DNA of 45,142 bases from Gloeocapsopsis crepidinum LEGE 06123. GTDB taxonomy: Bacteria > Cyanobacteriota > Cyanobacteriia > Cyanobacteriales > Chroococcidiopsidaceae. The notes beneath the pieces were generated by a model, which saw only the letters and a program-made list of their open reading frames with translations, was not told the origin of the DNA and ran no database searches. The stretch covers positions 1 through 45,142 of the forward strand of contig NZ_JADEWN010000052.1 of NCBI RefSeq assembly GCF_015207655.1, in the 5' to 3' direction. Positions 23,264 to 37,679 of this stretch are shown piece after piece; the stretch's first letter is position 1, and each line of letters opens with the position of its first letter. The position numbers and the translations under genes were made by a program.

Positions 23264-25543
23264 TTACGACAAGATAGGAAAAACACCCTGTACGCCCTGT
23301 GTTGACAACCACTCCTGGAGTTGATTCAAAGCTGGGTAAGCTCCGCATAATAACAGTAAGTCGCCTGCTTGCAAGCTCATATTCACATCAGGAAACCAAA
23401 AGAATTTACCATCGCGTCGAATTGCTTGTACCTGCACACTGCAACGAGTGAAAACATCTAACTGTGCCAAAGTTTGATTAATCACTGGGCTATTAACTCC
23501 AAGCATAATCCAGTGACACAACATATTTTCATCATGAATTGCCACTTCACCTTTAGCCAATTCATCAAACGCCGCGAGTTCCTCAGCAGTTCCAACGAGT
23601 AATAAGCGATCGCCTGTCTGCAAAATTGTCGTTGCATCAGGATAATCAACTTCTTCACCTTTCGCTCGACGAATTGCAATCAAACTGACACCAGTAAGAT
23701 ATCGTAAATTTACTTCTTCTAACGTCATACCAGCAAGCGGAGATGTCTTAGGTAAACTATACCAGCGACTATTCATATCTCTAGCTGCTAACTGCAACTC
23801 CCGCGAAACTTGTGCAGGCGATCGTTCAGGGCGCAATTCGAGATAATGATGCGATCGGATTTGCTGCATTTCTTGTTGAATTACTGGTAGCGCCAAGCCG
23901 ACTTGCGCTAATAAATGTGTGGAAAGTTCGATACTGGCTTCAAATTCAGGTTGTACAACTTCTCTTGCGCCTAGTTGATACAACAATTCAATATCTTGAT
24001 TTTTATTGGCACAGACTACCGTATCAAGTTCAGGAGATAGTTCTAATGCACGTTTAAGACACAAACGGGTACTCATCGGATCTCGCAAAGCAATTGCTAG
24101 CGATCGCGCGCGATCCACCCCAGCAGTTTCTAACACTCGCAAACTACTGGCATTACCATACACGTAAGGCACTCCAGCTTCACGCAACTGTTGAATTTTA
24201 CTTTCCGACTGATCTACTACTACCACAGAAAGTCCGCGTTCTTGCATCAAGCGAACTAAGTTACGTCCCATTTGTCCATAACCACAAACAACCAAATGAT
24301 CCTGTATCGGTAATTCTGGAGAAACCTCTTTTGGTACATCAGCCGCGTCCAAATAAGGCTTAAGCCAAGGTAACGATTCTGCCCAATTAAAAAATAAAGG
24401 AACTAGCCGCAATACAAACGGTGTTAGAACCAGCGTGACTGCAGTTGTTCCCAAAATTAGTAAATATACCCTGCGGGAAACTAGCCCTAGTGATTGCCCT
24501 TCACTCGCTAACACAAATGAAAATTCCCCGATCTGGGCTAAACCCAAACCAGCCAGCAACGCGGTTTTTATTGAATAACCAAAAGCTTTAACTAATGGAG
24601 TCACAATCAAAAATTTACCAACCCAAACCAGCGCTACTAACCCCAAAATCAACTCTAGGTTTTGCCACAAAAACACAGGATCAATCAACATGCCAATTGC
24701 TACAAAAAATAATGTCGCAAAGATATCTCGCAGCGGTTCGACATAAGTCAACGTCTGATCGGCGTACTCTACCTCCGAAATCATCAATCCAGCAACAAAC
24801 GCCCCCATTTCAATCGATAAACCCAAGTGTTCAGTTAGTAATGCAATACCCAAACATAAAGCCACAACACCAAGTAAAAATAACTCACGGCTTTCGGTAC
24901 GTGCCAAAAGTTTCAACAAAGGTGGAATTAACCAAATTCCCGCAGCTATAGCCCCTGCAGCAAATAATCCAATGCGTAACAAAGCAGTCAACACTGCCAT
25001 ACCAATTGTTTCAGCAGGTTGATCTAACGCAGGTAACACCGCAAGCATTAACCCTAATGCTAAGTCTTGAACTACCAAAATCCCCAGCATCACTTGCCCG
25101 TGTGAAGTTTCGGTTTCATTGCGTTCCATCAAGCACTTGAGTACAACTGCTGTAGAAGACAAAGATAAAATTGCACCTAAGAATACGCCTTGTGCTGGAG
25201 AATTTACCCAACCTACTAATAACGATACGAGTGCTGTCACTAAAATAGTGAGGGCAATTTGCAAGCCTCCACCACCTAAACTGATCGCCTGGACTTTTTT
25301 GAGTTCTGCAAAAGAAAATTCAACGCCCAAAGCAAACAATAAAAAGGCAACGCCAAACTGCGCCAGCGTTTCTACTTGAATTAATTCCTTGATTAATCCT
25401 AGTCCAGCAGGACCAACCACCATACCACCAAGCAAATAACCAAGGAGAACTGGTTGGCGCAACAGTGCGGCTAATAGCCCACCACCAGCTGCAACCGCGA
25501 GAACTAACACCAAATCAACTATTAACCGAAAATCTTCTTGCAC
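23264..25543 (-). CDS. CPA2 monovalent cation:proton antiporter (KefB/C type) with TrkA-N and TrkA-C
   Basis: A 759-aa protein. About twelve membrane helices occupy residues 1-385 (first LIVDLVLVLAVAAGGGLLAA), with the CPA2 signatures LFALGVEFSF, ILSLSSTAVVLKCL, MLGILVVQDLALGL and MGAFVAGLMISE. A TrkA-N/RCK domain follows (HLVVCGYGQMGRNLVRLM, NAD(H)-binding GxGxxG) at about 415-530, then two TrkA-C-like regions (TGDRLLLVGT; AGDLLLLCGAYPAL). Likely K+/H+ or Na+/H+ exchange in plasma or thylakoid membrane, gated by nucleotides. The start is a GTG at 25543. Confidence 0.93.
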   Translation of the reverse strand: MQEDFRLIVDLVLVLAVAAGGGLLAALLRQPVLLGYLLGGMVVGPAGLGLIKELIQVETLAQFGVAFLLFALGVEFSFAELKKVQAISLGGGGLQIALTILVTALVSLLVGWVNSPAQGVFLGAILSLSSTAVVLKCLMERNETETSHGQVMLGILVVQDLALGLMLAVLPALDQPAETIGMAVLTALLRIGLFAAGAIAAGIWLIPPLLKLLARTESRELFLLGVVALCLGIALLTEHLGLSIEMGAFVAGLMISEVEYADQTLTYVEPLRDIFATLFFVAIGMLIDPVFLWQNLELILGLVALVWVGKFLIVTPLVKAFGYSIKTALLAGLGLAQIGEFSFVLASEGQSLGLVSRRVYLLILGTTAVTLVLTPFVLRLVPLFFNWAESLPWLKPYLDAADVPKEVSPELPIQDHLVVCGYGQMGRNLVRLMQERGLSVVVVDQSESKIQQLREAGVPYVYGNASSLRVLETAGVDRARSLAIALRDPMSTRLCLKRALELSPELDTVVCANKNQDIELLYQLGAREVVQPEFEASIELSTHLLAQVGLALPVIQQEMQQIRSHHYLELRPERSPAQVSRELQLAARDMNSRWYSLPKTSPLAGMTLEEVNLRYLTGVSLIAIRRAKGEEVDYPDATTILQTGDRLLLVGTAEELAAFDELAKGEVAIHDENMLCHWIMLGVNSPVINQTLAQLDVFTRCSVQVQAIRRDGKFFWFPDVNMSLQAGDLLLLCGAYPALNQLQEWLSTQGVQGVFPILS

Positions 25544-26054
25544 AAGTCTTCAACAGAACTATATAAAAGCTATAAATTTCACCATAAAGGTTTTTTAAGT
25601 TAAAAGCCAGTGCGTCAGCTTAACTGAGTACATAGCAATTACTTTACTCAACTCTAAACTCACTTTCTCCGTATTTTTATCAAACCTCAACGATTTTCAG
25701 TATATCTCTAAGAAAAAAAGCTTTTTCTAAAATCCAACACTGACAATATTTTCACGGTTTTCATCAATAATTTAACCTTGCTATAAATTGGTTACTGCGA
25801 AATGCGTTCTGAGTTTATGGTGTAATTTTATGATTGAAATTATCGAGAAAGCTAACCAACTAAAATTGGATAAACCTTCAAACGGTATTAAAAGAGCAGT
25901 TACAACTAAACAAAAGAATAAAAAACTCATATTTCGTAGTATCAGCAAATCAAATATTGGAGATTGCTATATCACAACAATAATTTCTGAGCGCTGGTTG
26001 CAACTATTTCTCTTGCCTTTTGATTACCAAATATTCTTCAAATTTAGTTCACTC
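25544..26054. other. Spacer between the antiporter and the EAL remnant
   Basis: AT-rich. A frame from 25788 runs through this stretch into the EAL remnant, but its first 85 or so codons (Lys/Ile/Ser-rich) show no domain. It is either fully degenerate coding sequence or chance. No operator or terminator was recognised. Confidence 0.35.
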
Positions 26055-26285
26055 TTTATTCATTTATCTCAGATAAAAAATAATGCATTAAACTTTGATA
26101 TGGAAGTAGTTACAGAAGGAATATAGACAACACATCAATATGCTCAATTAAAAGTTTTAAAGTGTACTTATGGTCAAGTTTTTTTATTTTCCAAAGCTTT
26201 AGAACGCCAGGGGATAGAGGCATTCATAGAGTCTGAGTTGTTGGTTCAAAAACATCATAAAAAAACAAAATTCAATGTAACTTAG
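26055..26285 (+). pseudogene. C-terminal scrap of an EAL-domain c-di-GMP phosphodiesterase
   Basis: The frame reads NFDMEVVTEGI, then a TAG (26124-26126), then in the same frame QYAQLKVLKCTYGQVFLFSK and AL. These are the last blocks of an EAL domain (usual form MEVVAEGIET, LKxLxCxYGQGYLFSKPL). The catalytic part (EAL, DDF/E motifs) is missing and the stop replaces the Glu of GIET. It ends at a TAG at 26283-26285. The GGDEF gene follows on the same strand, so the two may be pieces of one ancestral signalling gene or of two neighbours. Confidence 0.65.
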
Positions 26286-26371
26286 AAGAGCAATTCTCTC
26301 GAGAGTAGTTACTAATTCATATTGAAAGACTTAAGCAAGAGTTAGAAGAGTTAAAGCAGGAAAAGACCGAT

Positions 26372-27025
26372 TTGGAAATTTTATTAGAGACGAATAATGA
26401 ACATTTAGACGTTGTAGAATTAGAATTACATAGAGAAATTAGCGATCGCCTGAAAGCAGAAGTTGCATTGCAAGAAGTCAATAGAAGACTGCAAAACCTC
26501 AGTTGCGTCGATAGCTTAACGCAAATAGCAAATCGTCGCCAATTTGATCAAGCGATCGCTCAAGAATGGTGGCGCATGGCAAGGGAAAAACAACCCTTAA
26601 CCTTAATTTTCTGCGATGTTGACTACTTTAAAACATACAATGACCACTATGGCCATCAGGCAGGCGATCATTGTTTAAAACAAGTAGCTCAAATCATTAG
26701 TGCTACGCTTGAGCGCCCTGGAGATTTAGTTGCTCGGTATGGGGGAGAAGAGTTTGCAGTCATCTTACCCAACACTGAGGCTGAGGGTGCAATTAAAGTA
26801 GCCCAAAAGATTCAAATGCAACTAAGAAACTCTCAGCTTGTCCATGCTGGCTCAGTAATCAGTGATTATGTGACGATGAGTTTGGGAATTGCGAGCACAA
26901 TTCCGACATCAGACAGCGAACCTGTTGCATTGATGGCAAAAGCAGATAAAGCACTGTATCAGCCAAAAACCAAGGACGCGATCGCTTTGTTCTTGCAGAC
27001 GTTACCTACTAACCTTACACCTTAA
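26372..27025 (+). CDS. GGDEF-domain diguanylate cyclase, possibly 5'-truncated
   Basis: The catalytic domain is complete: DSLTQIANRRQFDQ, CDVDYFKTYNDHYGHQAGD, and the active-site GGEEF at residues 124-128. It should therefore make c-di-GMP if folded. Upstream is a coiled coil (EVELxL-type, with DRLKAEVALQEVNRRLQNL). No ATG is available. The frame is open back to 26309 (ERLKQELEELKQEKTDLEIL), which is clearly coding-like. The start must be the TTG at 26372 or another weak codon, or an upstream sensor part has been lost. The remnant EAL piece just before it supports loss. An inhibitory RxxD site is not visible. Confidence 0.75.
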   Translation: MEILLETNNEHLDVVELELHREISDRLKAEVALQEVNRRLQNLSCVDSLTQIANRRQFDQAIAQEWWRMAREKQPLTLIFCDVDYFKTYNDHYGHQAGDHCLKQVAQIISATLERPGDLVARYGGEEFAVILPNTEAEGAIKVAQKIQMQLRNSQLVHAGSVISDYVTMSLGIASTIPTSDSEPVALMAKADKALYQPKTKDAIALFLQTLPTNLTP

Positions 27026-27141
27026 GGATTGATCGGTTTCATATCACCTGATTGTGTCTTTTTACGACACACAGCTTTAGCCTGACTCGAGGCTAGATTT
27101 CAACTAGCTATTTAACTATTTACATTAATAAGCAAATTACA

Positions 27142-30100
27142 ATGTCAAGCAACTCATTTTCTAATCAAGGCGTTTTAATCCACGAACTCGTAGAAATTCA
27201 AGTAGCAAAAACACCCGATGCGATCGCTGTTATTTTTCAAGATCAACAATTAACTTACCGCGAACTCAACGAAAAAGCAAATCAACTAGCTCACTACCTC
27301 AAATCATTAGGAGTCAAACCAGATGTTTTAGTAGGAGTTTGCGTTGAACGCTCTATAGAGATGATTATTGCCCTACTCGGTATTCTCAAATCTGGTGGTG
27401 CCTACGTTCCTCTCGATCCTGCATATCCTAAAGATCGCCTAGCATTTACTATTGAAGATACTCAGATTCCTATATTACTGACACAACAAAAATTAGCACG
27501 CTCGCTGCCTTTATATCAAGGACATTCGCTCTACATAGACGCAGATTGGGAAAAAATTGCCCAACAAAGTGAAAATAACTCTTTTAGTGGGGTCGAATCT
27601 CACAACCTTGCATATGTCATTTACACATCAGGTTCGACAGGTAAACCAAAAGGAGTAGCAATTGAACATCGTAATACAGTAGCTTTCATAGATTGGGCAA
27701 AAGAATGGTTTAGCGCTAAGCAGCTACAAGGAGTGTTAGCTTCTACTTCACTTTGCTTTGACCTATCAGTTTTTGAATTGTTTGTTACTTTAAGTTGTGG
27801 AGGAACGGTAATCTTGGCACAAAATGCCTTGCAATTACCAGATCTACCAGCAGCACAAAAAGTCACTTTAATTAATACAGTACCTTCAGCGATCGCTACC
27901 TTACTTCGTATGAAGGGAATTCCTGCCTCTGTTGAGACGATCAACCTTGCTGGAGAGCCGCTACAAAATAGCTTAGTACAGCAACTTTATCAGCTAGATC
28001 ATGTTCATCAAGTATTTAACCTTTATGGTCCCTCTGAAGACACTACCTACTCCACTGTTGCTTTAATGCAAAAAGATGCCACCGAAACTCCGACAATCGG
28101 TCGTCCAATTTCTAATACCCAAATTTATCTGCTAGACTCCCAACTCAAACCTGTATCAGATGGAATGGAGGGTGAGATCTATATTGCTGGGGCAGGTTTA
28201 GCTAGAGGCTATCTCAATCGTCCAGATTTGACAGATGAGAAATTTATTCCCAATCCTCTCAGTAAAGAGCCAGGTTCGCGACTCTACAAAACTGGAGATT
28301 TAGCAATTCGTTTACCTGACGGTAATCTCAAATACTTAGGACGTATCGATCACCAGGTTAAAATTCGCGGCTTTCGTATTGAATTAGGAGAGATTGAGTC
28401 AGTCTTGGTAAAACATCCTAAAGTAAGTCAGACAGTAGTAGTTGCCCGTGAGGTTTCTACAAACGACAAACGATTAGTTGCCTATGTAGTTCCGAATTCT
28501 ACCTCAGAACCAACACGACAAAATTTGATGATCCGCGATTTGCGTGATTTTCTTAAGCTGGAGTTGCCTGACTTTATGATTCCTGCAGCATTTGTCTTTT
28601 TGGAAGAATTACCACTCACTCTCAACGGTAAGATTGATCGTCGTGCACTCCCTATCCCTAAGTGGACTTGTATGGAACAGGGAGTTTATCTGGCACCCCG
28701 TAACTCTAGAGAAACACAATTAGCTGAGCTTTGGAGTCAACTACTTGGAGTAGATCAACCCAGTATCCATGACAACTTCTGCGAACTAGGCGGGCATTCC
28801 CTACAGGCAATTCAACTTGTTCATCAGGTTAATGAAATTTTTCACATAAGGCTACCCCTTGCAAGTTTTTTAGAAATGCCAACTATCGCGGGAATGGCTC
28901 AAAATATTGAGTCGCTTTATCATGCAGATGTTGCTCAATTAACTAAAAATGAGGAAACAGAAGTAGAGCTAGATTCTGCTATTTATCCTGAAAATATCTT
29001 AACTGAACCTATTCCCGAAATTTTTCTAACGGGTGCTACTGGTACTCTAGGTGCTTATCTGCTTTATGAGTTGTTGCAGCAAACTCGTGCAGACATCTAC
29101 TGTCTTGTTCGCGCTAGTAGCATTGAGGAAGTTCGGGCAAAAATTCAAAATGCTTTAAAGCGTTACGGACTCTGGAGCGATCGCTTAAGTACAAGAATAA
29201 TACCTGTTCTAGGTGATTTAAGCCAGCCTTATCTAGGCATCAAACCTGAACAGTTTGCTCGACTAGCAGAAAAAATTGACTTAATTTACCACTGTGGAGC
29301 TTGGGTTAACGTAGCATATCCTTACTCAGCTTTGAAAGCCGCTAACGTTTTAGGTACTCAAGAGATTTTACGCTTAGCAAGCCAAACCAAAACTAAACCA
29401 GTACATTTTATTTCGACAATCGACGTTTTTTCTGTCACTAGCAGCAATACGCTTAGAACAATCAAAGAAGAAGATGTTGCAGGTCCAACATCTTCTCTTG
29501 GTAACGGCTATGCCCAAACTAAGTACATGGCTGAGAAATTATTAATAGAGGCTGCTTCTAGAGGCTTACCTATTTCCATTTACCGACCAAGTAATATTGT
29601 TGGAGATAGCAAAACAGGCATTTGCCTAACTGATGGATTCATTACCTTAATGCTTAAGGGTTGTCTGGAGATGGGAGTTGCTCCTGACATAGAAGCAATG
29701 TTGAATCTTGTACCAGTAGATTATGTCAGTCAAGCAATTGTTTTACTGTCACAGAAGCAAGAACCCTGTACTCAAGCTTTTCATCTAGTCAATCCAGAAC
29801 CAATCGAGTGGAAGCAACTTATTGAATGGCTGAATAAGATGGGTCACTCAATTTACTTAGACTCTTACACTACTTGGTATTCTCAGCTACTCAAGCTCGC
29901 TGCTCAGACCTCAGACAATACCATAACCCCCTTAGCAGGACTTTTTGCTAATCAGTACTTAGTTCAAAAACTATTGGGAGCGTTTTACTTTGATTCACAA
30001 GAACCCTTAAAAACTCTTGCTACTAGCAATCTAACGTGTCCTCCTGTGGATGATGAGTTACTGCTTAATAACTTTTCACATTTACTCAAGTATCATGGTT

Positions 30101-30153
30101 CCTGCAAGTCGCAACTCTTAACTACTCACTCAGGAGGCTTGATCTCAGTCTAG
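27142..30153 (+). CDS. Stand-alone A-T-R enzyme (NRPS-like carboxylic acid/aminoacyl reductase)
   Basis: A single 1003-aa module. The adenylation domain (residues about 10-510) has YVIYTSGSTGKPKGVAIEH, CFDLSVFEL, NLYGPSEDTTY, YKTGDLAIRLPDGNLKYLGR and NGKIDRRALP. A carrier domain follows with LGGHSLQAIQL, phosphopantetheine site Ser553. The thioester reductase is an extended SDR with NADPH site FLTGATGTLGAYLLYELL (about residue 630), HFIST, and catalytic Tyr790/Lys794 in GYAQTKYMAEK. Such enzymes activate an acid, tether it and release it as aldehyde or alcohol. Aligning to GrsA by eye I read the pocket code D-L-F-N-N-A-L-T-Y-K, which I recall as alanine-like (MxaA-type); this needs software. 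No condensation domain, PKS or PPTase gene is beside it. A sensor kinase operon follows. Confidence 0.88.
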   Translation: MSSNSFSNQGVLIHELVEIQVAKTPDAIAVIFQDQQLTYRELNEKANQLAHYLKSLGVKPDVLVGVCVERSIEMIIALLGILKSGGAYVPLDPAYPKDRLAFTIEDTQIPILLTQQKLARSLPLYQGHSLYIDADWEKIAQQSENNSFSGVESHNLAYVIYTSGSTGKPKGVAIEHRNTVAFIDWAKEWFSAKQLQGVLASTSLCFDLSVFELFVTLSCGGTVILAQNALQLPDLPAAQKVTLINTVPSAIATLLRMKGIPASVETINLAGEPLQNSLVQQLYQLDHVHQVFNLYGPSEDTTYSTVALMQKDATETPTIGRPISNTQIYLLDSQLKPVSDGMEGEIYIAGAGLARGYLNRPDLTDEKFIPNPLSKEPGSRLYKTGDLAIRLPDGNLKYLGRIDHQVKIRGFRIELGEIESVLVKHPKVSQTVVVAREVSTNDKRLVAYVVPNSTSEPTRQNLMIRDLRDFLKLELPDFMIPAAFVFLEELPLTLNGKIDRRALPIPKWTCMEQGVYLAPRNSRETQLAELWSQLLGVDQPSIHDNFCELGGHSLQAIQLVHQVNEIFHIRLPLASFLEMPTIAGMAQNIESLYHADVAQLTKNEETEVELDSAIYPENILTEPIPEIFLTGATGTLGAYLLYELLQQTRADIYCLVRASSIEEVRAKIQNALKRYGLWSDRLSTRIIPVLGDLSQPYLGIKPEQFARLAEKIDLIYHCGAWVNVAYPYSALKAANVLGTQEILRLASQTKTKPVHFISTIDVFSVTSSNTLRTIKEEDVAGPTSSLGNGYAQTKYMAEKLLIEAASRGLPISIYRPSNIVGDSKTGICLTDGFITLMLKGCLEMGVAPDIEAMLNLVPVDYVSQAIVLLSQKQEPCTQAFHLVNPEPIEWKQLIEWLNKMGHSIYLDSYTTWYSQLLKLAAQTSDNTITPLAGLFANQYLVQKLLGAFYFDSQEPLKTLATSNLTCPPVDDELLLNNFSHLLKYHGSCKSQLLTTHSGGLISV

Positions 30154-30197
30154 CTTGATTGACGAAAATTCAATAAAAATTATTACTCTCAGATTAT

Positions 30198-30265
30198 TCA
30201 TCAGGGTGAGTTTAGCAATCAGGTTTGGGCAAACTAATAACGTACGACTAAGCTTGCCCTGATGA
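30198..30265. repeat. Long inverted repeat between the A-T-R gene and the hybrid kinase
   Basis: Arms 30198-30215 (tcatcagggtgagtttag) and 30248-30265 (ctaagcttgccctgatga) pair at all 18 positions, three as G-T in RNA. A small GTTTG/CAAAC hairpin lies inside. No T-run follows, so it is not a textbook terminator. It may be a transcript stabiliser or a regulator site. Confidence 0.6.
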
Positions 30266-30360
30266 TTCTATGACTTCTAACTGAATTGAATCTAATTGCT
30301 AGGTTGGCAGGCTTAGTAGATTGCTCCAAACAACATCCAAGCAAGTCCAAGAGTTGGTGA

Positions 30361-33315
30361 ATGAACGCAAATTGGATAAATAAAGTAAAAACCCCTTTTT
30401 GTGCATCTCAGAGGGATGCTTCTAATCAAAGTAAGTATACAGGATCATTAACGCGCAAAACCCTCATCAAAACAGCACTTAGTATTGGCGCAGTCATTGT
30501 TGCCTCAACTGGGGTAGGATACTTTCAGTTGATTTCGCGTATTACAGCACAGACTCTAACACAAATTGAAAAGTATGCTCTCTCGCGAGCACAAAGAGAA
30601 GAAGCTATTTTTAGCTTGGCAGAAGATAATCACGTCATACTCAAACAGGCTCTTTTGGAAACACTTCAGGAGAAAACACAAGATCCTCAAAGCAAGTTTG
30701 AACAGCTATTTATCAAAATGCCTGATGGCACTACTCGCAACCATCCTGAAAATTTTGAGCCACAGAAGATTCCTGGAGTGTTCTTAGGTAGCAATGTTCA
30801 TATTGATGCTGACATACGCCGTCGGGTGGTTGCTTACTTTGAGCTACTTAGTGCTTATGGTCCTGCATGGCGCAACCGCTTTGTGAACACTTATATGCAA
30901 ATTCCAGAAAACGGAATTGCTATTTATATGCCTAGTTATGCTTGGACACAAAGTGCTCCTTCAGATAAATCATTTCGAGTTACTGATGATGAGTCTTTTT
31001 ATATTACTAATAAAATCCAAAATCCAAAACGTCAAACTGTTTGGTCTGGTATATATTACGACAAAGTTGCAAAGCGATGGATGGCTTCCTGCGTTACACC
31101 AGTAGATATAAATGGTAAGCACATCGCAACAATTGGACACGATATTTTGATTGATGAATTACGCGATCGCGCGATTCAAGATGCTTTAAAAGGAACATAC
31201 AATATAATCTTTCGCGAAGATGGGCGTTTGATAGCACATCCTGACTTTATGCAAGAAATTCAAGATGGAGAGGGAAAATTTAACATTTCGCACTCAGGTA
31301 ATGCTAACTTACGTAATATTTTTAAACTAGTAAAGCATAAGCAAGCTAATCAAGTCATTGTTGATGATTACAGGGATAATCAATACCTAGCCGTGACTAA
31401 AATTGATGGTCCTAATTGGTATTTAGTCACAGTTTATCCTAAAAGTCTCCTTCAACAGCAAGCCTTCTCTAGTGCTCGGCTCATTCTTTTTTTAGGACTT
31501 ATCTCACTAGCCATTGAAATTGCGATTATTTTTCTAATTTTACGCCGGCAGATTTCTGAACCCTTAACTCACATGATGGAGGCAACTGAAACTATTACAG
31601 CAGGTGAATTAAACGTTGAGCTAGATGTATCTCGACAAGATGAATTAGGTCATTTAGCCTACCTATTTAACAAAATGGCACAGCAGTTACGAGAATCTTT
31701 TCAGAAGCTAGCAAAGACTAACGAAGAACTAGAATTGCGGGTTGAAGCAAGAACTGCTGAACTTAAAGAAGCGAAAGAAACTGCTGATGCTGCTAACCGT
31801 TCTAAAAGTGAATTCTTAGCAAATATGAGCCATGAATTGCGGACCCCCTTAAATGCAATCATTGGCTACAGCGAAATGTTGCAAGAAGAAGCACAAGATT
31901 TGGAGCAAGAAGAGTTTATCCCAGACTTGCGCAAAATTCATAATGCAGGTAAACATTTATTGTCCTTGATTAACGACATCCTTGACTTGTCTAAAATTGA
32001 GGCTGGTCGGATGGAACTTTATCAAGAAACTTTTGAAATCACGACACTTGTTAATGAAGTTATTAATACGATCGCTCCTTTAGCTGAAAAAAATCACAAT
32101 GCCCTGATTGTCAATTGTCCTGAACGCGCAGGTACAATGTATGCCGATCTCACAAAGGTGCGTCAAAGTTTATTTAATCTTCTCAGTAACGCTTGTAAAT
32201 TTACAGAGAAAGGCAAAATCGTCCTGACAGTTAATCGCTACACGAAAGATAACCAAGGTTGGATTCGCTTTCAAGTCAGAGATACAGGTATTGGCTTAAC
32301 TCTAGAACAACAACAAAAAATCTTTCAAGCTTTTACGCAAGCAGATGCTTCGACAACGCGTAAATATGGTGGCACTGGTTTAGGACTAGCAATTACTAAA
32401 AGATTTTGTCAGCTAATGGAAGGTGATATCAGCGTAAGTAGTACACTAGGTGAAGGCTCTACCTTTATCATCGAGTTACCAACTAAAATTCCTGAATCTT
32501 TTAACGATGCAACGACTGAAAAAATTGCGATCGCGGAATCTTCTTCTTGCCAATTAACCACCATCCTTGTGATTGATGACGATCAAACTATTAAGGACTT
32601 GATCCAACGCTACCTCAATAAAGAGGGTTTTCAGACGATCGCCGCGAGTAATGGTGCTACTGGCTTATCGCTGGCTAAAGAAATACGACCTGATGCAATT
32701 ATTCTTGATGTAATGATGCCTGGTATGGATGGTTGGACAGTGTTAGCCTCCTTGAAAGCTGATCCTGAAGTCGCTAACATCCCAGTCATTATGACAACTA
32801 TTGTCGATGACAAAAATTTAGGCTATGCTCTGAGCGCTTCTGATTATCTTCTTAAACCGATTGATCGCGAGCGTTTGATGGCAATGTTGCACAAATACCA
32901 TGCAGCACAATCTTTTAAGGCTGTGATGATGGTAGAAGATAATAAAGTCACCAGCCAGATGATCGGTCGTCAACTTGAAAAAGAAGGCTGGCAAGTTATT
33001 CAAGCCGAAAACGGGCGTAAAGCACTAGAACTTCTCCAAGTGAATACTCCAGGACTAATTATTACTGATTTAATGATGCCAGAAATGGATGGCTTTGAAT
33101 TTATTCATATTCTCCGTCAAACTCCGCAGTGGGCATCAATTCCAGTCATTGTTATTACTGCGAAAGAAGTGACAGAAGAACAACGATTGCAACAGCATGT
33201 TTACAAAGTCTTTGAAAAAGGTTCTTACGATCGCCAAGCCTTGCTCAAAGAAGTTCATTATCTGTTGTCACAAGCGGTCAATCTTCAAAAAACTTTGATA
33301 ACTACTCAGTCATAG
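30361..33315 (+). CDS. Cache-HAMP hybrid histidine kinase with two receiver domains
   Basis: A 984-aa membrane sensor. TM1 lies at about residues 36-58. An extracytoplasmic Cache-like region (about 60-370) contains [17 protein letters not shown] just before TM2 ([20 protein letters not shown]). HAMP follows, then a coiled coil and HisKA with [20 protein letters not shown] (His491). HATPase has N-box [11 protein letters not shown]1 RDTGIGL and G2 [12 protein letters not shown]1 has [13 protein letters not shown] (Asp783), REC2 has [13 protein letters not shown] (Asp903). Cache domains bind small ligands such as amino acids or carboxylates. It probably starts the signalling operon through 36540. 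ATG at 30361; the spacer before it holds the long inverted repeat. Confidence 0.92.
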
Positions 33316-33412
33316 TGGCATAGCTAGTAATTAGTCGGGAGTTTCTTGAGTAGCAGCAGGAGTGCACGCGAGGATTACGAATCAGTCACATTCAAAGCTT
33401 TAGGTGAAATCG

Positions 33413-33787
33413 ATGACCAAAATTCTGATAGTCGAAGACAATGACATGAATCGAGATATGCTTTCTCGGCGGTTAACTCGTAAAGGTTACGATATCGTAT
33501 TTGCCGTTGATGGTGCCCAAGGCTTATCAATGACCTCTTCAGAAAAGCCTGACATTATCTTAATGGATATGAGTTTGCCAGTAATTGATGGCTGGGAGGC
33601 AACTCGACAACTAAAAGTGAATCCTCAAACTCAAAATATTCCAGTCATTGCTTTGACTGCACATGCAATGTCAGGCGATCGCGAGAAAGCACTTACTGCT
33701 GGATGTGACGAGTACGATACTAAACCAATCGAGTTACCACGTTTACTAGAAAAAATTGAGGTTCTTCTAAGGAAAACGAATCAATAG
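33413..33787 (+). CDS. Single-domain response regulator (CheY/DivK-like)
   Basis: A 124-aa receiver alone: TKILIVEDNDMNRDMLSRRL, acceptor Asp in IILMDMSLPVIDGWE, Thr in IALTAHAMSG, and Lys in YDTKPIELPRL. It resembles the DivK-type shuttle receivers that follow hybrid kinases. The start ATG at 33413 is preferred; a GTG at 33404 adds three residues. The next frame begins one base after its stop region (33789), so translation is probably coupled. Confidence 0.9.
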   Translation: MTKILIVEDNDMNRDMLSRRLTRKGYDIVFAVDGAQGLSMTSSEKPDIILMDMSLPVIDGWEATRQLKVNPQTQNIPVIALTAHAMSGDREKALTAGCDEYDTKPIELPRLLEKIEVLLRKTNQ

Positions 33788-33788
33788 C

Positions 33789-35533
33789 ATGGAGAACGAT
33801 AACTCTACGCAACTGGCTTTAATTTCATATCTGCAACATAAATTACGCACGCCCATTAATGCCATCATTGGTTATAGTGAAATGTTGCTTGAAGAAATAG
33901 CAACTGACTCTAACTCATCCATAACTTCTAAATTAAAACAAATTTTTAGCTGTGGCAGTCAACTTTTAACACTTATCAATAAACACCTCGATCCAGCTTA
34001 TTTGGCTACTAATTCACATTTTACTATAGTTACAGTCATTGAAATTTTACCTCTAGAATTAGAGCCTCCTTTAAAAATAGTTATTGATTGTTGCGAACAT
34101 CTCTTAAAACAAGCTACAGCAGAACTAATAACTGATGTAGATAAAATTTGTACTGCTACTCAATCGCTACTAAGCACAATTTATAACATTACTAGTATAG
34201 TTGAACGTTATTTCCAGTTACACAATATTAAAACTGTGGGGAAGAATTCTTATTTAGAGTTAACTACATCTATTAAAAAAGATTTTATTACAGATGCGAT
34301 TTATTTAGAAGAGCGTCAGAAAAAGCCAGCAGAACGTTCAGGACATATCTTAATTGTTGACGACAATGAAAGTAATCGTGACTTACTTTCTAGACTCATC
34401 ATAGCGCAAGGTTATACTGTCACAACTGCTGCTAATGGTTTGCAAGCAATTCAAATGATTAAAACAGCAAACTATGACCTGATTCTACTCGATATCCTTA
34501 TGCCAGAAGTTAATGGATATGAGGTATTACAATGGTTGCGCGAGCAATTTCGACATATCCCAGCGATCGCAATTTCATCTAAGGCTGAAATTGATAGTGT
34601 TGTTAAATGCATTGAAATGGGAGCAGAAGACTACCTGACAAAGCCTTTTAATTCAATCTTGCTACGCGCCCGCCTTGAGGCTTGCTTAGAAAAAAACGCT
34701 TGCGCGATCGCGAAGTAGAATATTTAGCTCAACTTAACAGTGCTAATCAAGAAATAACTTTTCTTAATGAACGACTTAAAGCTGAAAACTTTCGCTTGAG
34801 TGCTGAACTCAAAGTTACACGTAAATTGCAGCAAATGATCTTACCTAAAGATCGCGAGTTAAGTCAAATTGAAGGATTAGATATTGCTGGATATATGAAA
34901 CTAGCAGACGAAGTAGGCGGCGACTATTACGACGTTTTACAAACTAATGGGTTCAAAATTGGTATTGGTGATGTCACTGGGCATGGGTTAGAAAGTGGAG
35001 TTCTAATGCTCATGGTGCAAACTGCTGTAAGAACTCTTATAGAAAACAACGAAACTGACCCTATAAAATTTCTAGAAGTTTTCAACCGGACAATTTATAA
35101 TAATATTCAACGCATGAATTCTAGTAAGAATTTGACTCTTTCTTTAGTTAATTCTCATAACTGTAAATTAAATTTAAGCGGACAACACGAAGAAATTATT
35201 GCCATCCGCTCTAATGAAACTTTAGAATGCATTGACACTATAAATTTAGGTTTTCCAATAGGGCTAGAGGAAAGCATTGAAAACTTTGTTTCCCAAACTT
35301 AAATTCAGTTACAAGCTGGCGATGTAGTAGTGCTATATACCGATGGTATTACTGAAGCTGAAAATAGTTTGGGTGTTCACTACGGACTAGAAAGACTTTG
35401 TGAAGTTGTTAAACAAAATTGGCACAGATCAGTTCAAGAAATTAGGAAAATTGTTCTTGATGATGTCTGCCGGCGTATTGGTTCGCATAAAGTCTATGAC
35501 GATATCACTTTAGTAATTCTGAAACAAAAATAG
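33789..35533 (+). pseudogene. HisKA-REC-PP2C (RsbU/SiaA-like) phosphatase gene interrupted twice
   Basis: Three adjacent frames make one protein of a recognisable cyanobacterial type. Part 1 (33789-34718): a HisKA-like helix pair ([19 protein letters not shown]) without HATPase, then a receiver (HILIVDDNESNRDLLSRLII, Asp in LILLDILMPEVNGYE, Lys in LTKPFNS). Part 2 (frame from 34682): coiled coil and SpoIIE/PP2C phosphatase (AGYMKLADEVGGDYYDVLQ, GIGDVTGHGLESGVLM, LSGQHEEIIAIR, LGFPIGLEESIENFV). Part 3 (35303-35533) continues the same frame with GDVVVLYTDGITEAEN and VYDDITLVILKQK. Between parts 1 and 2 the frame shifts by -1 at 34691-34697; between 2 and 3 is a TAA at 35300-35302. All metal-binding Asp motifs remain. 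It would dephosphorylate the anti-sigma antagonist-like partner downstream. Confidence 0.82.
34691..34697 (+). other. A AAA AAC heptamer at the REC/PP2C frame change
   Basis: In the upstream frame the codons are GAA AAA AAC. A -1 step on A AAA AAC gives AAA AAA CGC and continues as KKRLRDREVEYLAQL, the expected family sequence after ARLEACLE. This is the classic XXXYYYZ slippery form in exactly the right phase. A lost A in an 8-A run would look the same. Confidence 0.5.
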
Positions 35534-35583
35534 CTTGAAATAGCTTATTACTTAATCATAAAAATAATTACTATAAATAAGTC

Positions 35584-36159
35584 ATGTCTCAAATAATTGG
35601 AGATTTTATAACCTGCCTGCCTCTTAATCAAGAATATTTAATTTTTGGCTTTTCACTCAGTTATACTTCACTCCAGCAGAGATGGCGGAATAACGGAATT
35701 TCGGCTGATTTTCTTGCCAATTACTTAACTACTTTTTTTCCAGACAATGATGATGGTTCAATTATAGCCCAGAAGCAAACTGAGCTAAAAAGGGCTGTTA
35801 GCTATATTGCTAACGAGCTATTAGAAAATTCCATGAAGTTTAGTTATGAAAATTCTGCTCCTATCAGCATTCAATTACATCTGCATAGTGATAGAATCAT
35901 TTTTGTCATTTCTAATAGTATTAGTTATCAACAATTTGAATTTTTCCAGTCATATATAAACATATTACTGACCTCAGATTTAGATGATTTATATATCCGT
36001 CAAATAGAAAAAAGTATAGACAAAGAACCTAGTTGCTCTGGATTGGGTTTACTAACGATCCTTAACGACCATACAACCAAGCTAGGTTGGAAATTTGAGG
36101 AAGGTCAAGATAACTCACATCAGGTAACTGTCACCACTATAGTGCAGTTGATAGTATAA
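35584..36159 (+). CDS. HATPase-type serine kinase/anti-sigma-like protein (SiaB/DUF6272-like)
   Basis: A 191-aa protein. The N-box-like ELKRAVSYIANELLENSMKF at about residues 65-85 and the glycine box CSGLGLLTILND near residue 160 are the remains of a GHKL ATPase, as in RsbW and SiaB. The rest (HSDRIIFVISNSISYQQFEF) fits the DUF6272 group, which usually stands between a PP2C phosphatase and a STAS/SiaC-like protein. It would phosphorylate that partner. It is the only intact member of the three-gene partner-switch set here. The exact family assignment is from memory of its neighbourhood and motifs. Confidence 0.7.
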   Translation: MSQIIGDFITCLPLNQEYLIFGFSLSYTSLQQRWRNNGISADFLANYLTTFFPDNDDGSIIAQKQTELKRAVSYIANELLENSMKFSYENSAPISIQLHLHSDRIIFVISNSISYQQFEFFQSYINILLTSDLDDLYIRQIEKSIDKEPSCSGLGLLTILNDHTTKLGWKFEEGQDNSHQVTVTTIVQLIV

Positions 36160-36174
36160 ACTACTTAATCAACT

Positions 36175-36539
36175 ATGAAAAAAATACTAGATGTAATGAA
36201 AATAGAAGGTAAAAGTTATAGTGTTCTCTATGATGTCTCTACTGCTACAGTGATATTTCAAGGTTCACTTCGTCTCAGTGGAGCAGAAGAATATGCTCCG
36301 ATTGAGCAGATCCTTAATAGTGTAACAGCTCAAGATCCATCTATCATAATCTTAAACTTGCAGAAATTGGAGTTTCTCAACAGTTCGGGTATTAGTATGT
36401 AATTAAAATTTGTAATTAATGTCCGCAATAAAAAAATAGTCAGATGATTATCATTGGTTCTCAAGAAATTCCCTGGCAAGGAAAGTCATTAAAAAAATTA
36501 CAACGGCTCATGCCTTCTCTTAAGCTAGAAATTATTTAA
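36175..36539 (+). pseudogene. SiaC/STAS-like antagonist gene with a nonsense codon and a frame change
   Basis: The first frame (36175-36402) gives LRLSGAEEYAPIEQILNSV and LNLQKLEFLNSSGISM, the substrate-serine region of a STAS or SiaC (DUF1987)-like protein, then TAA at 36400-36402. The same frame goes on as LKFVINVRNKKIV, then a TGA at 36445-36447. A neighbouring frame from 36444 continues MIIIGSQEIPWQGKSLKKLQ to LKLEII and TAA at 36537-36539. The pieces read as one protein of about 120 aa. LNSSG holds the likely phosphorylated serine. It lies 15 bp after the SiaB-like gene. AT-rich sequence without a gene follows to 36806. Confidence 0.75.
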
Positions 36540-36806
36540 GACTTTATGTTTAAATTAACTTAATAAAAATATAAAAAGCTAATTAAATATTTCATGTTTT
36601 TTTATTAGGGTAACGTTTAGCATTTCTTATAAAAAATCTTTATATATAAAAAGAAAGGGATTTCAGTGAGTTTTATACTTACTTTCACCTAAAAAAGTAA
36701 TGTCAATGAAAATCAAAAAAGATAAGCTACTCTATGTTGATATTGTTATTATTGATTTTCTTGACTGCAATAACTATACCAAGTGTGCGATCGCCACTTA
36801 GCAACG

Positions 36807-37679
36807 ATGAAACTAAACTCACGTTTTCTTAAAAGCATCTTGTTACTAAGCAGCATCATAGTATTGCTGGTTGCTTTGGTAACTCCAAGTCAGGCTATGC
36901 AAGTGCAGATATCACCAACTAATCCTCATTTGGGAGATACACTGACACTTCTGATTGAGCAAAATCGCGGAGCAGGTGAGCCATCAGTTACAATCAATCA
37001 GAAAACTTACCCTACCTTTGAAATTGCCCCAAATCGATTTCGGGCAATGTTACCGACAACACCCCTAGAACAACCAGGAGTACGTCAAATTCGAGTCAAT
37101 GCTGGCGATCAGGTACGTAATTTAGCAGTACAAGTAAAGAATCGCTCATTCCCTATCCAGCGGATCAATCTTCCCCCAGGAAAAGCAGGAACTAGCGCAA
37201 CACAGTACGAACTTGACCGCGTGGCAGAGTTTAAAAAGCTGGTAACGCCACAAAAATACTGGAATGGTCCATTTACAAGACCAAATAAAGGGCGTATTAG
37301 TGCAATTTACGGTGTTCGCCGCTACTACAACGGCAAATTTGCCAAAGACTACTACCATCGTGGTGTTGACTATGCTGGTGGTGTTGGTTCGCCTGTCTTT
37401 GCTCCAGCATCAGGACGTGTTGCTTTGGTAGGAACAGTATCTCAAGGCTTTCGCATTCATGGCAATATTGTTGGCATCGATCACGGTCAAGGTGTGACGA
37501 GTGCTTTCTTACACCTAAGCAGAATTGATGTTAAACAGGGAGATATGGTTAAACCAGGTCAAGTCATTGGTGCAGTAGGATCTACAGGTGCAGTTACAGG
37601 TCCTCACTTACATTGGGGGCTATACGTTCATGGAGAATCGGTCGATCCTGTACCTTGGCGCGAACGAGGATTTAATTAA
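36807..37679 (+). CDS. Exported M23-family (LytM) peptidase
   Basis: A 290-aa protein. The signal peptide (FLKSILLLSSIIVLLVALVT, then PSQAMQ) is followed by a beta-rich N-terminal domain and a C-terminal LytM domain. The zinc site reads HRGVDYAGG (HxxxD) and GPHLHWGLYVHG (HxH). M23 enzymes cut peptide cross-links of peptidoglycan. All metal ligands are present, so it should be active. The ATG at 36807 is preferred to a GTG at 36783, which only adds MCDRHLAT across a HIP1 site. It is monocistronic. Confidence 0.92.
   Translation: MKLNSRFLKSILLLSSIIVLLVALVTPSQAMQVQISPTNPHLGDTLTLLIEQNRGAGEPSVTINQKTYPTFEIAPNRFRAMLPTTPLEQPGVRQIRVNAGDQVRNLAVQVKNRSFPIQRINLPPGKAGTSATQYELDRVAEFKKLVTPQKYWNGPFTRPNKGRISAIYGVRRYYNGKFAKDYYHRGVDYAGGVGSPVFAPASGRVALVGTVSQGFRIHGNIVGIDHGQGVTSAFLHLSRIDVKQGDMVKPGQVIGAVGSTGAVTGPHLHWGLYVHGESVDPVPWRERGFN

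Follow-up and report, generated by a model that had tools for sequence, protein, structure and literature searches.

The question raised by this locus is whether a small enzyme of the nonribosomal peptide synthetase (NRPS) type makes the ligand of the sensor kinase encoded next to it. The locus lies in a 45,142-nucleotide stretch of Gloeocapsopsis crepidinum LEGE 06123 (the window; it is contig G000:C88 of an assembly that totals 5.67 Mb over 150 contigs), in which a single-module adenylation-thiolation-reductase (A-T-R) enzyme adjoins a hybrid histidine kinase with a double Cache (dCache) sensor. A first-pass annotation had suggested that a self-made amino-aldehyde or amino-alcohol is sensed by the Cache kinase, and the comparison of genomes partly supports this idea, since the linkage of the two genes is kept among relatives and the sensor class appears to follow the predicted product. 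On evidence that is comparative throughout, we judge it fairly probable that the enzyme product is the ligand of the adjoining dCache kinase. The pair is apparently a conserved, undescribed synthase-receptor system with matched specificities.

With the Cache-HAMP part of the window kinase as the query, 388 genomes of the order were searched, and the stretches around 63 of the best sensor matches were inspected, a few of which lie near contig ends (e.g., L103 and L131). A sensor signature (IPENG plus DESF) was present in 18 of the 63 homologues. In 17 of these 18, an A-T-R enzyme was encoded directly upstream on the same strand, with gaps of -73 to 494 bp; in the 18th (G130), the enzyme was found about 10.6 kb upstream, also on the same strand. 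Sensors without the signature had an enzyme upstream in 1 of 45 cases (G156, a condensation-A-T-R [C-A-T-R] enzyme with a PilZ insert). The first-pass annotation had named separate locations of the A-T-R and signaling genes in relatives as the outcome that would refute it; enzyme and sensor were instead found side by side, and together with the empty sites described below these counts indicated that synthase and receptor are conserved together. Scanning named genomes yielded 22 loci, of which 15 have the enzyme upstream, all under cyanobacterial names (including Desmonostoc, Nostoc calcicola, Trichormus, Kamptonema, Geitlerinema, Spirulina, Goleter, Microcoleus, Calothrix, Geminocystis, Phormidesmis, Pantanalinema, and Scytolyngbya); 11 of the 15 overlap contigs of the order search, and 4 are species new to it. 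The enzyme-less named homologues came from one Thiotrichaceae and six Chitinibacter/Andreprevotia/Amantichitinum genomes. In the former, a metagenome-assembled genome in a gammaproteobacterial bin, two adjoining class I-related kinases without an enzyme were seen (L147, 6950-12040). As a control, 23 other reductase-terminated enzymes were inspected (L180-L186 and L187-L202), and none lay beside such a kinase; several of these are on short contigs, and kinases unlike the reference proteins would escape this count. The window A-T-R itself, used as the query in a genome-contig search, returned no relative.

The window enzyme has the A-T-R architecture in one chain (PF00501, PF13193, PF00550, and PF07993), and its reductase domain is nearest to that of MxaA (4u7w, 3.4e-92). 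Its 10-residue adenylation code is DLFNNALTYK, identical to that of McyA (Protein Data Bank 8jbr) at all nine positions printed in the alignment. We take this code to specify Ala and the code DVQFIAHVVK, found in relatives, to specify Pro. Adenylation domains of the Gly type have 4zxh as their nearest solved domain, and DILQLGMIWK is described as a Gly-activating code in an excerpt of PMC12283262.

When the sensors were sorted into three classes, class I paired with DLFNNALTYK (12 cases) or DLFDNALT[YF]K (5 cases, all in family f14), and class II paired with Gly-type codes (8 cases). Class II is a variant of the class I sensor in which A, T, H, and Q stand at the positions usually occupied by V, I/M, P, and Y in class I; isolated exceptions at these class-marking residues were L in L145 and F in L137. 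Class III sensors paired either with A-T-R enzymes of code DVQFIA[HQ]VVK (5 cases) or with enzymes that have Ala- or Gly-type codes and a methyltransferase within the C-terminal part of the adenylation domain (A-MT-T-R; 6 cases, of which 5 of 5 scanned were recognized by Pfam and G086 by length and similarity). Class III accordingly went with predicted secondary amines in 11 of 11 cases and classes I and II with predicted primary amines in 25 of 25 (Fisher P value = 1.7e-9, which ignores relatedness and counts the window and near-identical pairs). This suggested that the sensor class follows the predicted product of the enzyme. The table counts G098 in class I (its sensor is broken and unaligned and was classed by genus), the G116 kinase (its matched part has stops, the open frame still being counted), and G367, whose kinase is cut by a contig end and which was left out of the identity tests. 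It leaves out G156 (C-A-T-R with PilZ insert and another sensor), G013 (both genes broken), and G130 (enzyme 10.6 kb off).

Class III was also approached from the sensor side. With the G353 sensor as the query, matches at E <= 1e-40 were obtained in 37 of the 388 genomes. Among the 17 inspected loci of at least 45% identity (29 weaker matches fall outside this count), the enzyme lay directly upstream in 12 (broken in G013), and one locus was cut by a contig end. One class III-like sensor, that of G229 (L177, 4813-6996), is fused straight to a PP2C domain and is enzyme-less in the stretch inspected. Class III sensors occurred in all three clades of the adenylation tree.

Because the nearest receptors include amino acid sensors, we considered the possibility that the kinase senses the free substrate (Ala, Gly, or Pro) and gates enzyme expression or use by nutrient supply. 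The dCache_1 profile scored 39 bits in the window kinase, below its 45-bit cut-off; the fold was confirmed by a Foldseek search with a model of the sensor (predicted local distance difference test, 90; predicted template modeling score, 0.83), which placed it nearest to the dCache receptors 7k5n (with proline), Mlp24, 9hvj (with uracil), and PctA. The nearest solved sequences to class III were 6d8v, PacA (7psg), 3li8, 7k5n, and 3lib, of which PacA and 3LIB are given as amine sensors in an excerpt of PMC10104139. The same excerpt describes amino acid receptors as binding the carboxylate through Arg (R126 of PctA) and amine receptors as without this Arg, with the Asp kept. At the corresponding stretch, placed by eye, classes I and II read D-E-S-F (E-S-F at the Arg region), with the Asp of GHD invariant in 19 sequences, and class III reads [QL]-[DEK]-Y-Y, with the Asp of GLD/SMD kept in 11. 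These residues, as a hint only, would fit a ligand without a carboxylate, such as the reductase makes. Substrate sensing was further disfavored by the methyltransferase pattern: class III is the partner of enzymes that combine an Ala- or Gly-type code with a methyltransferase, as it is of Pro-type enzymes, and since methylation occurs on the enzyme, a substrate sensor should have stayed in class I or II. G358 and G100 are instructive in this respect, as their adenylation domains are 69 to 71% identical to that of the window and have the same code, yet both have a methyltransferase and a class III sensor, which argues that the product rather than the substrate is sensed. We therefore regard sensing of the free substrate as improbable. 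Primary amino-aldehydes can pair to pyrazines, and secondary ones cannot; the class I/II ligand could thus be a pyrazine.

The relatives also provide natural swaps that bear on the preferred reading, in which the product is the ligand. All seven genes of the block, in the order of the window, are present in G353 and G342, which belong to another family. Compared to the window, their reductase (63 to 66% identity) and kinase (77 to 78%) are close, whereas the adenylation domain (51 to 53%) and sensor (18 to 19%) differ. For G353 the values against the window were 51 (adenylation), 63 (reductase), 19 (sensor), and 77 (kinase), and those against G195 were 61, 55, 58, and 42, suggesting that adenylation domain and sensor were exchanged together within a conserved block. 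Spirulina CS-785/01 has one class I and one class III pair, which are 46% identical in the adenylation domain, 52% in the reductase, 19% in the sensor, and 69% in the kinase. The partial rank correlation of adenylation domain and sensor, given reductase and kinase, was 0.68 in 28 systems including G156 (0/2000 permutations). With the methyltransferase enzymes added and G156 taken out (34 systems), it was 0.38 (0/2000 permutations); this drop would be expected if the product, not adenylation ancestry, matters, but it makes the test less clear-cut.

Such covariation could also arise if the kinase responds to some unrelated cue and controls the enzyme, with the sensor and the adenylation domain traveling together in one operon by shared ancestry only. 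Several results favor this alternative or otherwise weigh against matched specificity. Independent class switches were few, with two pairs on well-supported branches (four on all branches), so that a sign test on them cannot reach 0.05. Within classes I and II alone, the partial correlation was 0.33 (8/2000 permutations), or 0.30 (33/2000) without near-copies, and the sensor also tracked the reductase (0.29 to 0.32) and the kinase (0.41), making the continuous test unspecific there. In the f14 sensors, whose enzymes have the Ala-like code, the last class-marking residue is Q, as in class II, and the G145 sensor (f14) additionally has S for P; the class III residue sub-signature fails for G244. 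Four of the 17 inspected class III-type sensors (G213 C93, G123, G229, and G353 C27) were without an adjacent enzyme, and two stand-alone A-T-R enzymes with Gly-type codes (L188, 6681-9869, and L197, 6357-10091) had no adjoining Cache kinase. The closeness of the proline-bound sensor 7k5n to class III is compatible with a free amino acid as the ligand. Lastly, the Ala and Pro meanings of DLFNNALTYK and DVQFIAHVVK are presumptive; our literature searches turned up no paper giving either code.

Other observations run counter to mere cotransfer. In G353 and G342, the sensor and adenylation domain differ while reductase, kinase, receiver (REC), PP2C, DUF6272, and STAS proteins are all window-like. 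G009 retains the enzyme and sensor (69% in the adenylation domain and 66% in the sensor) with a different kinase (34%). In G127, the reductase belongs with that of the window (61%; it joins G009 with a Shimodaira-Hasegawa-like approximate likelihood ratio of 89), even though the code is of the Gly type and the sensor is class II. The class-switch pairs, alike in number on the adenylation and reductase trees, agree with the product rule but are too few for significance. Because reductase and kinase correlate about as well within classes I and II, the categorical match of class and product is the stronger evidence for product sensing. Taken together, operon hitch-hiking appears unlikely.

The enzyme and kinase of the window belong to a larger block, which contains the following features.

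23264 to 25543, minus strand: what we take to be a KefC-like transporter; one edge of the empty site (next to the M23 gene in 8/8 genomes tested).
25776 to 26285, plus strand: remnants from the front portion of a GGDEF-EAL-GGDEF gene (N-terminus and EAL end; tblastn against the unbroken G001 frame of 836 aa, 60% and 88%).
26309 to 27025, plus strand: GGDEF remnant (coil and GGDEF domain; PF00990, 9.8e-52; 97% to G001 up to a C-terminal frame change).
27142 to 30153, plus strand: the single-module A-T-R enzyme (Pfam AMP-binding, PP-binding, and NAD_binding_4).
30361 to 33315, plus strand: the dCache-HAMP-HisKA-HATPase-REC-REC hybrid histidine kinase (Pfam; modeled sensor stretch 30511-31488).
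33404 to 33787, plus strand: single receiver (REC; PF00072, 1.4e-26; 98% to G001).
33789 to 34718, plus strand: HisKA-REC part of a broken HisKA-REC-PP2C gene (Pfam; a single 582-aa frame in G001).
34682 to 35533, plus strand: PP2C (SpoIIE) part of the same gene, in two open pieces (Pfam of both pieces; raised omega).
35584 to 36159, plus strand: DUF6272 (SiaB-like) kinase-type protein (PF19788, 23.7 bits, just below the 26.6 cut-off).
36175 to 36539, plus strand: broken STAS-domain protein of the anti-anti-sigma type (TAA at 36400-36402 plus a frame change).
36783 to 37679, plus strand: presumably an M23-type peptidase; the other edge of the empty site (next to the KefC gene in 8/8 genomes tested).

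All of the genes that the first-pass annotation had placed in a co-oriented cluster (26309-36539) do lie on the plus strand and have the domains it gave, as confirmed by Pfam. The G353 homologue of the DUF6272 protein scored 31.1 bits, above the 26.6 cut-off. The block sits whole between the KefC and M23 genes, which are adjacent, divergent, and 205 to 384 bp apart in 8 of 8 other genomes tested among 16 available from the family (G002, G003, G005, G006, G009, G010, G013, and G014). Because of these empty sites, and in view of the sensor-enzyme linkage tally, a chance neighborhood was ruled out. Joint absence or decay was also found elsewhere. In f14, G157 and G192 have weak matches only, to enzyme and sensor alike, and the two genes of G169, which lie on separate contigs, are both broken; in G013 as well, both are broken. 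A further f14 genome, G098, has an intact enzyme adjoining a kinase split by an inserted frame (L161, 7869-11942), a 279-aa opposite-strand frame that is perhaps a transposase, as guessed from its first residues. The Sia-like part was rejected as the conserved core, as DUF6272 lies beside 8 of 36 scored enzyme-kinase pairs (several other stretches end early); by this comparison the conserved core is the A-T-R enzyme plus the dCache kinase.

The composition of the block also bears on a further alternative, that the enzyme product is an ordinary secondary metabolite, such as a pyrazine or a protease-inhibiting aldehyde, with the kinase only switching its production. Small NRPS-like enzymes elsewhere reportedly give pyrazinone- or diazeniumdiolate-type products. 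However, nothing else in the window block was recognized as a biosynthetic, tailoring, or resistance gene, and the co-inherited neighbors are signaling genes, so this explanation seems very improbable. Two other NRPS enzymes were observed in passing. In G156, the adenylation domain of the C-A-T-R enzyme contains a PilZ domain (PF07238, 1.2e-11; residues 755-835 of L109, 10601-14857) inserted where the core meets the C-terminal part, the site of the methyltransferase in other enzymes; this insert could make the enzyme responsive to cyclic di-GMP (c-di-GMP). In the genome of the window itself, an NRPS line ends in a reductase module with code DVGEIGSIDK (G000:C32, 71115-74078; L180), and its product is possibly a reduced peptide.

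The seven-gene cluster was found to be real in its genes and their order but not intact: the A-T-R, dCache kinase, REC, and DUF6272 genes are open, and 3 of the 7 (GGDEF, HisKA-REC-PP2C, and STAS) are damaged. The supposed GGDEF gene at 26309 is what is left of the C-terminal end of a GGDEF-EAL-GGDEF protein, which G001 and G004 have in intact form (835/836 aa). Its frame opens after a TAG at 26306-26308 and has no ATG or GTG ahead of the domain; the first possible start is a TTG at 26372, within the coil, and the C-terminal end is out of frame. A stop separates the two upstream tblastn matches, and the bulk of the gene is gone. HisKA-REC-PP2C is one gene in G001 and G004 (582 or 569 aa), whereas the window has a frame shift near 34682-34718 plus an in-frame TAA at 35300-35302. 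The STAS gene (PF01740) is intact in G001 (114 aa) and G004 (121 aa). Both of these genomes, G001 of the same genus and G004 of the same family, have intact versions of the block in the same order.

The possibility that read errors alone account for the broken genes was rejected by contrasting the ratio of nonsynonymous to synonymous substitution rates (omega) between the window and G001 with that between G001 and G004; short divergence inflates omega generally and some G004 distances are saturated, so that only the contrast counts. The two values were 0.52/0.40 versus 0.05/0.12 for the PP2C pieces, 0.36 versus 0.17 for HisKA-REC, 0.24 versus 0.06 for DUF6272, 0.15 versus 0.05 for GGDEF, 0.25 versus 0.14 for A-T-R, 0.13 versus 0.08 for the kinase, and 0.05 versus 0.05 for REC, compared to 0.11 to 0.13 versus 0.07 to 0.08 for two flanking genes. 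The STAS piece alone showed no sign of relaxed selection, as its omega was not increased (0.27 versus 0.25). For some output genes we therefore favor true decay over read errors, and the window genome appears to be losing its output genes while the enzyme and sensor are kept. With PP2C, STAS, and GGDEF all broken, the downstream relay has probably ceased to work here.

In intact relatives, the relay can be followed further. The small last gene had been taken for a SiaC/STAS-like protein. The SiaC identity was rejected, as the intact homologues match STAS and not SiaC (24.1 bits to PF01740, cut-off 22.6, and no PF09345 match in G001); a PF09345 search of the window's own genome gave no match, but control profiles likewise matched nowhere. 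REC plus HisKA-REC-PP2C, DUF6272, and STAS form the output in families f1, f8, and f28 (G102; the G086 stretch ends near DUF6272). In f19, the output includes DUF6272 in G244, where the stretch ends, and the G100 and G116 stretches end in PP2C; in f14, PP2C was present and no DUF6272 was recognized. REC-HisKA-HATPase proteins were seen in seven of the other loci scanned. In G036 (L072, 2329-10726), a different sensor kinase precedes REC, HisKA-REC-PP2C, DUF6272, and STAS, with no A-T-R recognized in the stretch inspected.

DUF6272 homologues occurred in 24 of 60 genomes, the window's own included. A 66-aa coil ahead of the second GGDEF domain of the G001 protein recurred in 13 of the 60 (own included), all of them among the 24 with DUF6272 (hypergeometric P value = 4.8e-7). 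The coil lay <1 kb from DUF6272 in nine genomes, about 9 kb away in the three that are syntenic, and 13.5 kb away in the remaining one; another two copies of the coil were located elsewhere. The coil is carried by the GGDEF protein, PAS-nucleotide cyclases, and a PAS kinase, and at four loci (L067, 7033-8508; L068, 7732-9270; L069, 7418-9403; and L062, 7858-13353) it lies beside STAS/DUF6272 genes with differing outputs, suggesting that a common coil is the docking element for varied outputs (PAS-nucleotide cyclase or PAS/GAF kinase). SiaC is described as acting on the SiaD stalk in an excerpt of PMC8457831, and by analogy the coil pattern is as would be expected of a STAS docking site. The relay to c-di-GMP that had been proposed for this locus is thus plausible in intact relatives (coil within 13.5 kb of DUF6272 in 13 of 13) but is probably interrupted in this genome, where its PP2C, STAS, and GGDEF genes are broken.

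These results suggest the following pathway. The A-T-R enzyme would load a single small amino acid (Ala, as its code predicts here), tether it, and release it reductively as an amino-aldehyde, an amino-alcohol, or a spontaneous derivative. The product would then reach the periplasm and be bound by the dCache domain of the kinase next door. Matched sets would exist, with Ala- and Gly-type enzymes served by two variants of one sensor and Pro-type or N-methylating enzymes (secondary amines) by the other dCache sensor. Where relatives have the full block (G001, G004, G353, and G342), the signal would presumably pass from the kinase to REC and on to HisKA-REC-PP2C, which would dephosphorylate STAS and so oppose the DUF6272 kinase; STAS may then act on the coil of the GGDEF-EAL-GGDEF protein, as SiaC does on the stalk of SiaD. 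More broadly, there is about an even chance that reduced amino acids made from Ala, Gly, Pro, N-methyl-Ala, and N-methyl-Gly serve cyanobacteria as signals, with one single-module synthetase-reductase and one cognate dCache kinase for each. The "word" would change when the sensor and the adenylation domain are exchanged jointly, or when a methyltransferase is gained along with a new sensor, and STAS/DUF6272 switches and c-di-GMP would receive the message. If true, this would be a chemical language with a readable code, in which the signal is predictable from the enzyme and testable on the adjacent sensor domain. It would also assign a class of ligands to a group of cyanobacterial dCache kinases, show how NRPS-made autoinducers can be received, and add an input to c-di-GMP control; the natural domain swaps (G353/G342, G127, and G358/G100) are ready-made controls.

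No description of such an enzyme-kinase pair was found in the literature searched (titles and starts of abstracts, with preprints and most subscription journals outside this scope), and in the text of a survey of cyanobacterial NRPS and polyketide synthase clusters (PMC4247773), a term search gave neither "kinase" nor "two-component." The nearest output system is SiaABCD of Pseudomonas aeruginosa, with which the intact blocks share a PP2C phosphatase, a DUF6272 (SiaB-type; PF19788) kinase, a small antagonist, and a coil-bearing diguanylate cyclase. They differ from it in that the antagonist is STAS (PF01740) rather than SiaC (PF09345), the phosphatase is a HisKA-REC-PP2C protein under a hybrid kinase with a dedicated A-T-R enzyme attached, and the effectors beside the switch vary (GGDEF, nucleotide cyclase, or PAS kinase). 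Moreover, no membrane sensor of the SiaABCD kind was recognized by Pfam in the PP2C protein of G001, the sensor being in the separate kinase. The HmpUVW partner switch of cyanobacteria is said to follow a PP2C, STAS, and HATPase logic, but the DUF6272 kinase, sensor kinase input, and dedicated enzyme set the present system apart. The dCache_1AA and dCache_1AM receptors have the fold in common with both sensors, class III being near solved amine receptors (amine-binding motif compared by eye) and the window sensor near amino acid receptors; here, however, the ligand is proposed to come from the adjacent enzyme, and classes I and II have their own IPENG/DESF signature. Autoinducer-2 is reportedly an autoinducer sensed by a dCache domain; unlike this signal, which is made by LuxS, the one proposed here would come from a single-module A-T-R enzyme encoded beside the sensor. 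The Pvf/Mgo and ham systems likewise have a small NRPS-type enzyme that converts an amino acid to a diffusible signal, PvfC being the example for which the receptor is left to future studies in an excerpt of PMC10194917. None of the Pvf/Mgo genes (N-oxygenase PvfB or PvfA/PvfD) was recognized among the frames beside the A-T-R enzyme, no profile search having been made. Unlike in those systems, a receptor-type kinase is encoded beside the enzyme here, and its sensor class covaries with it.

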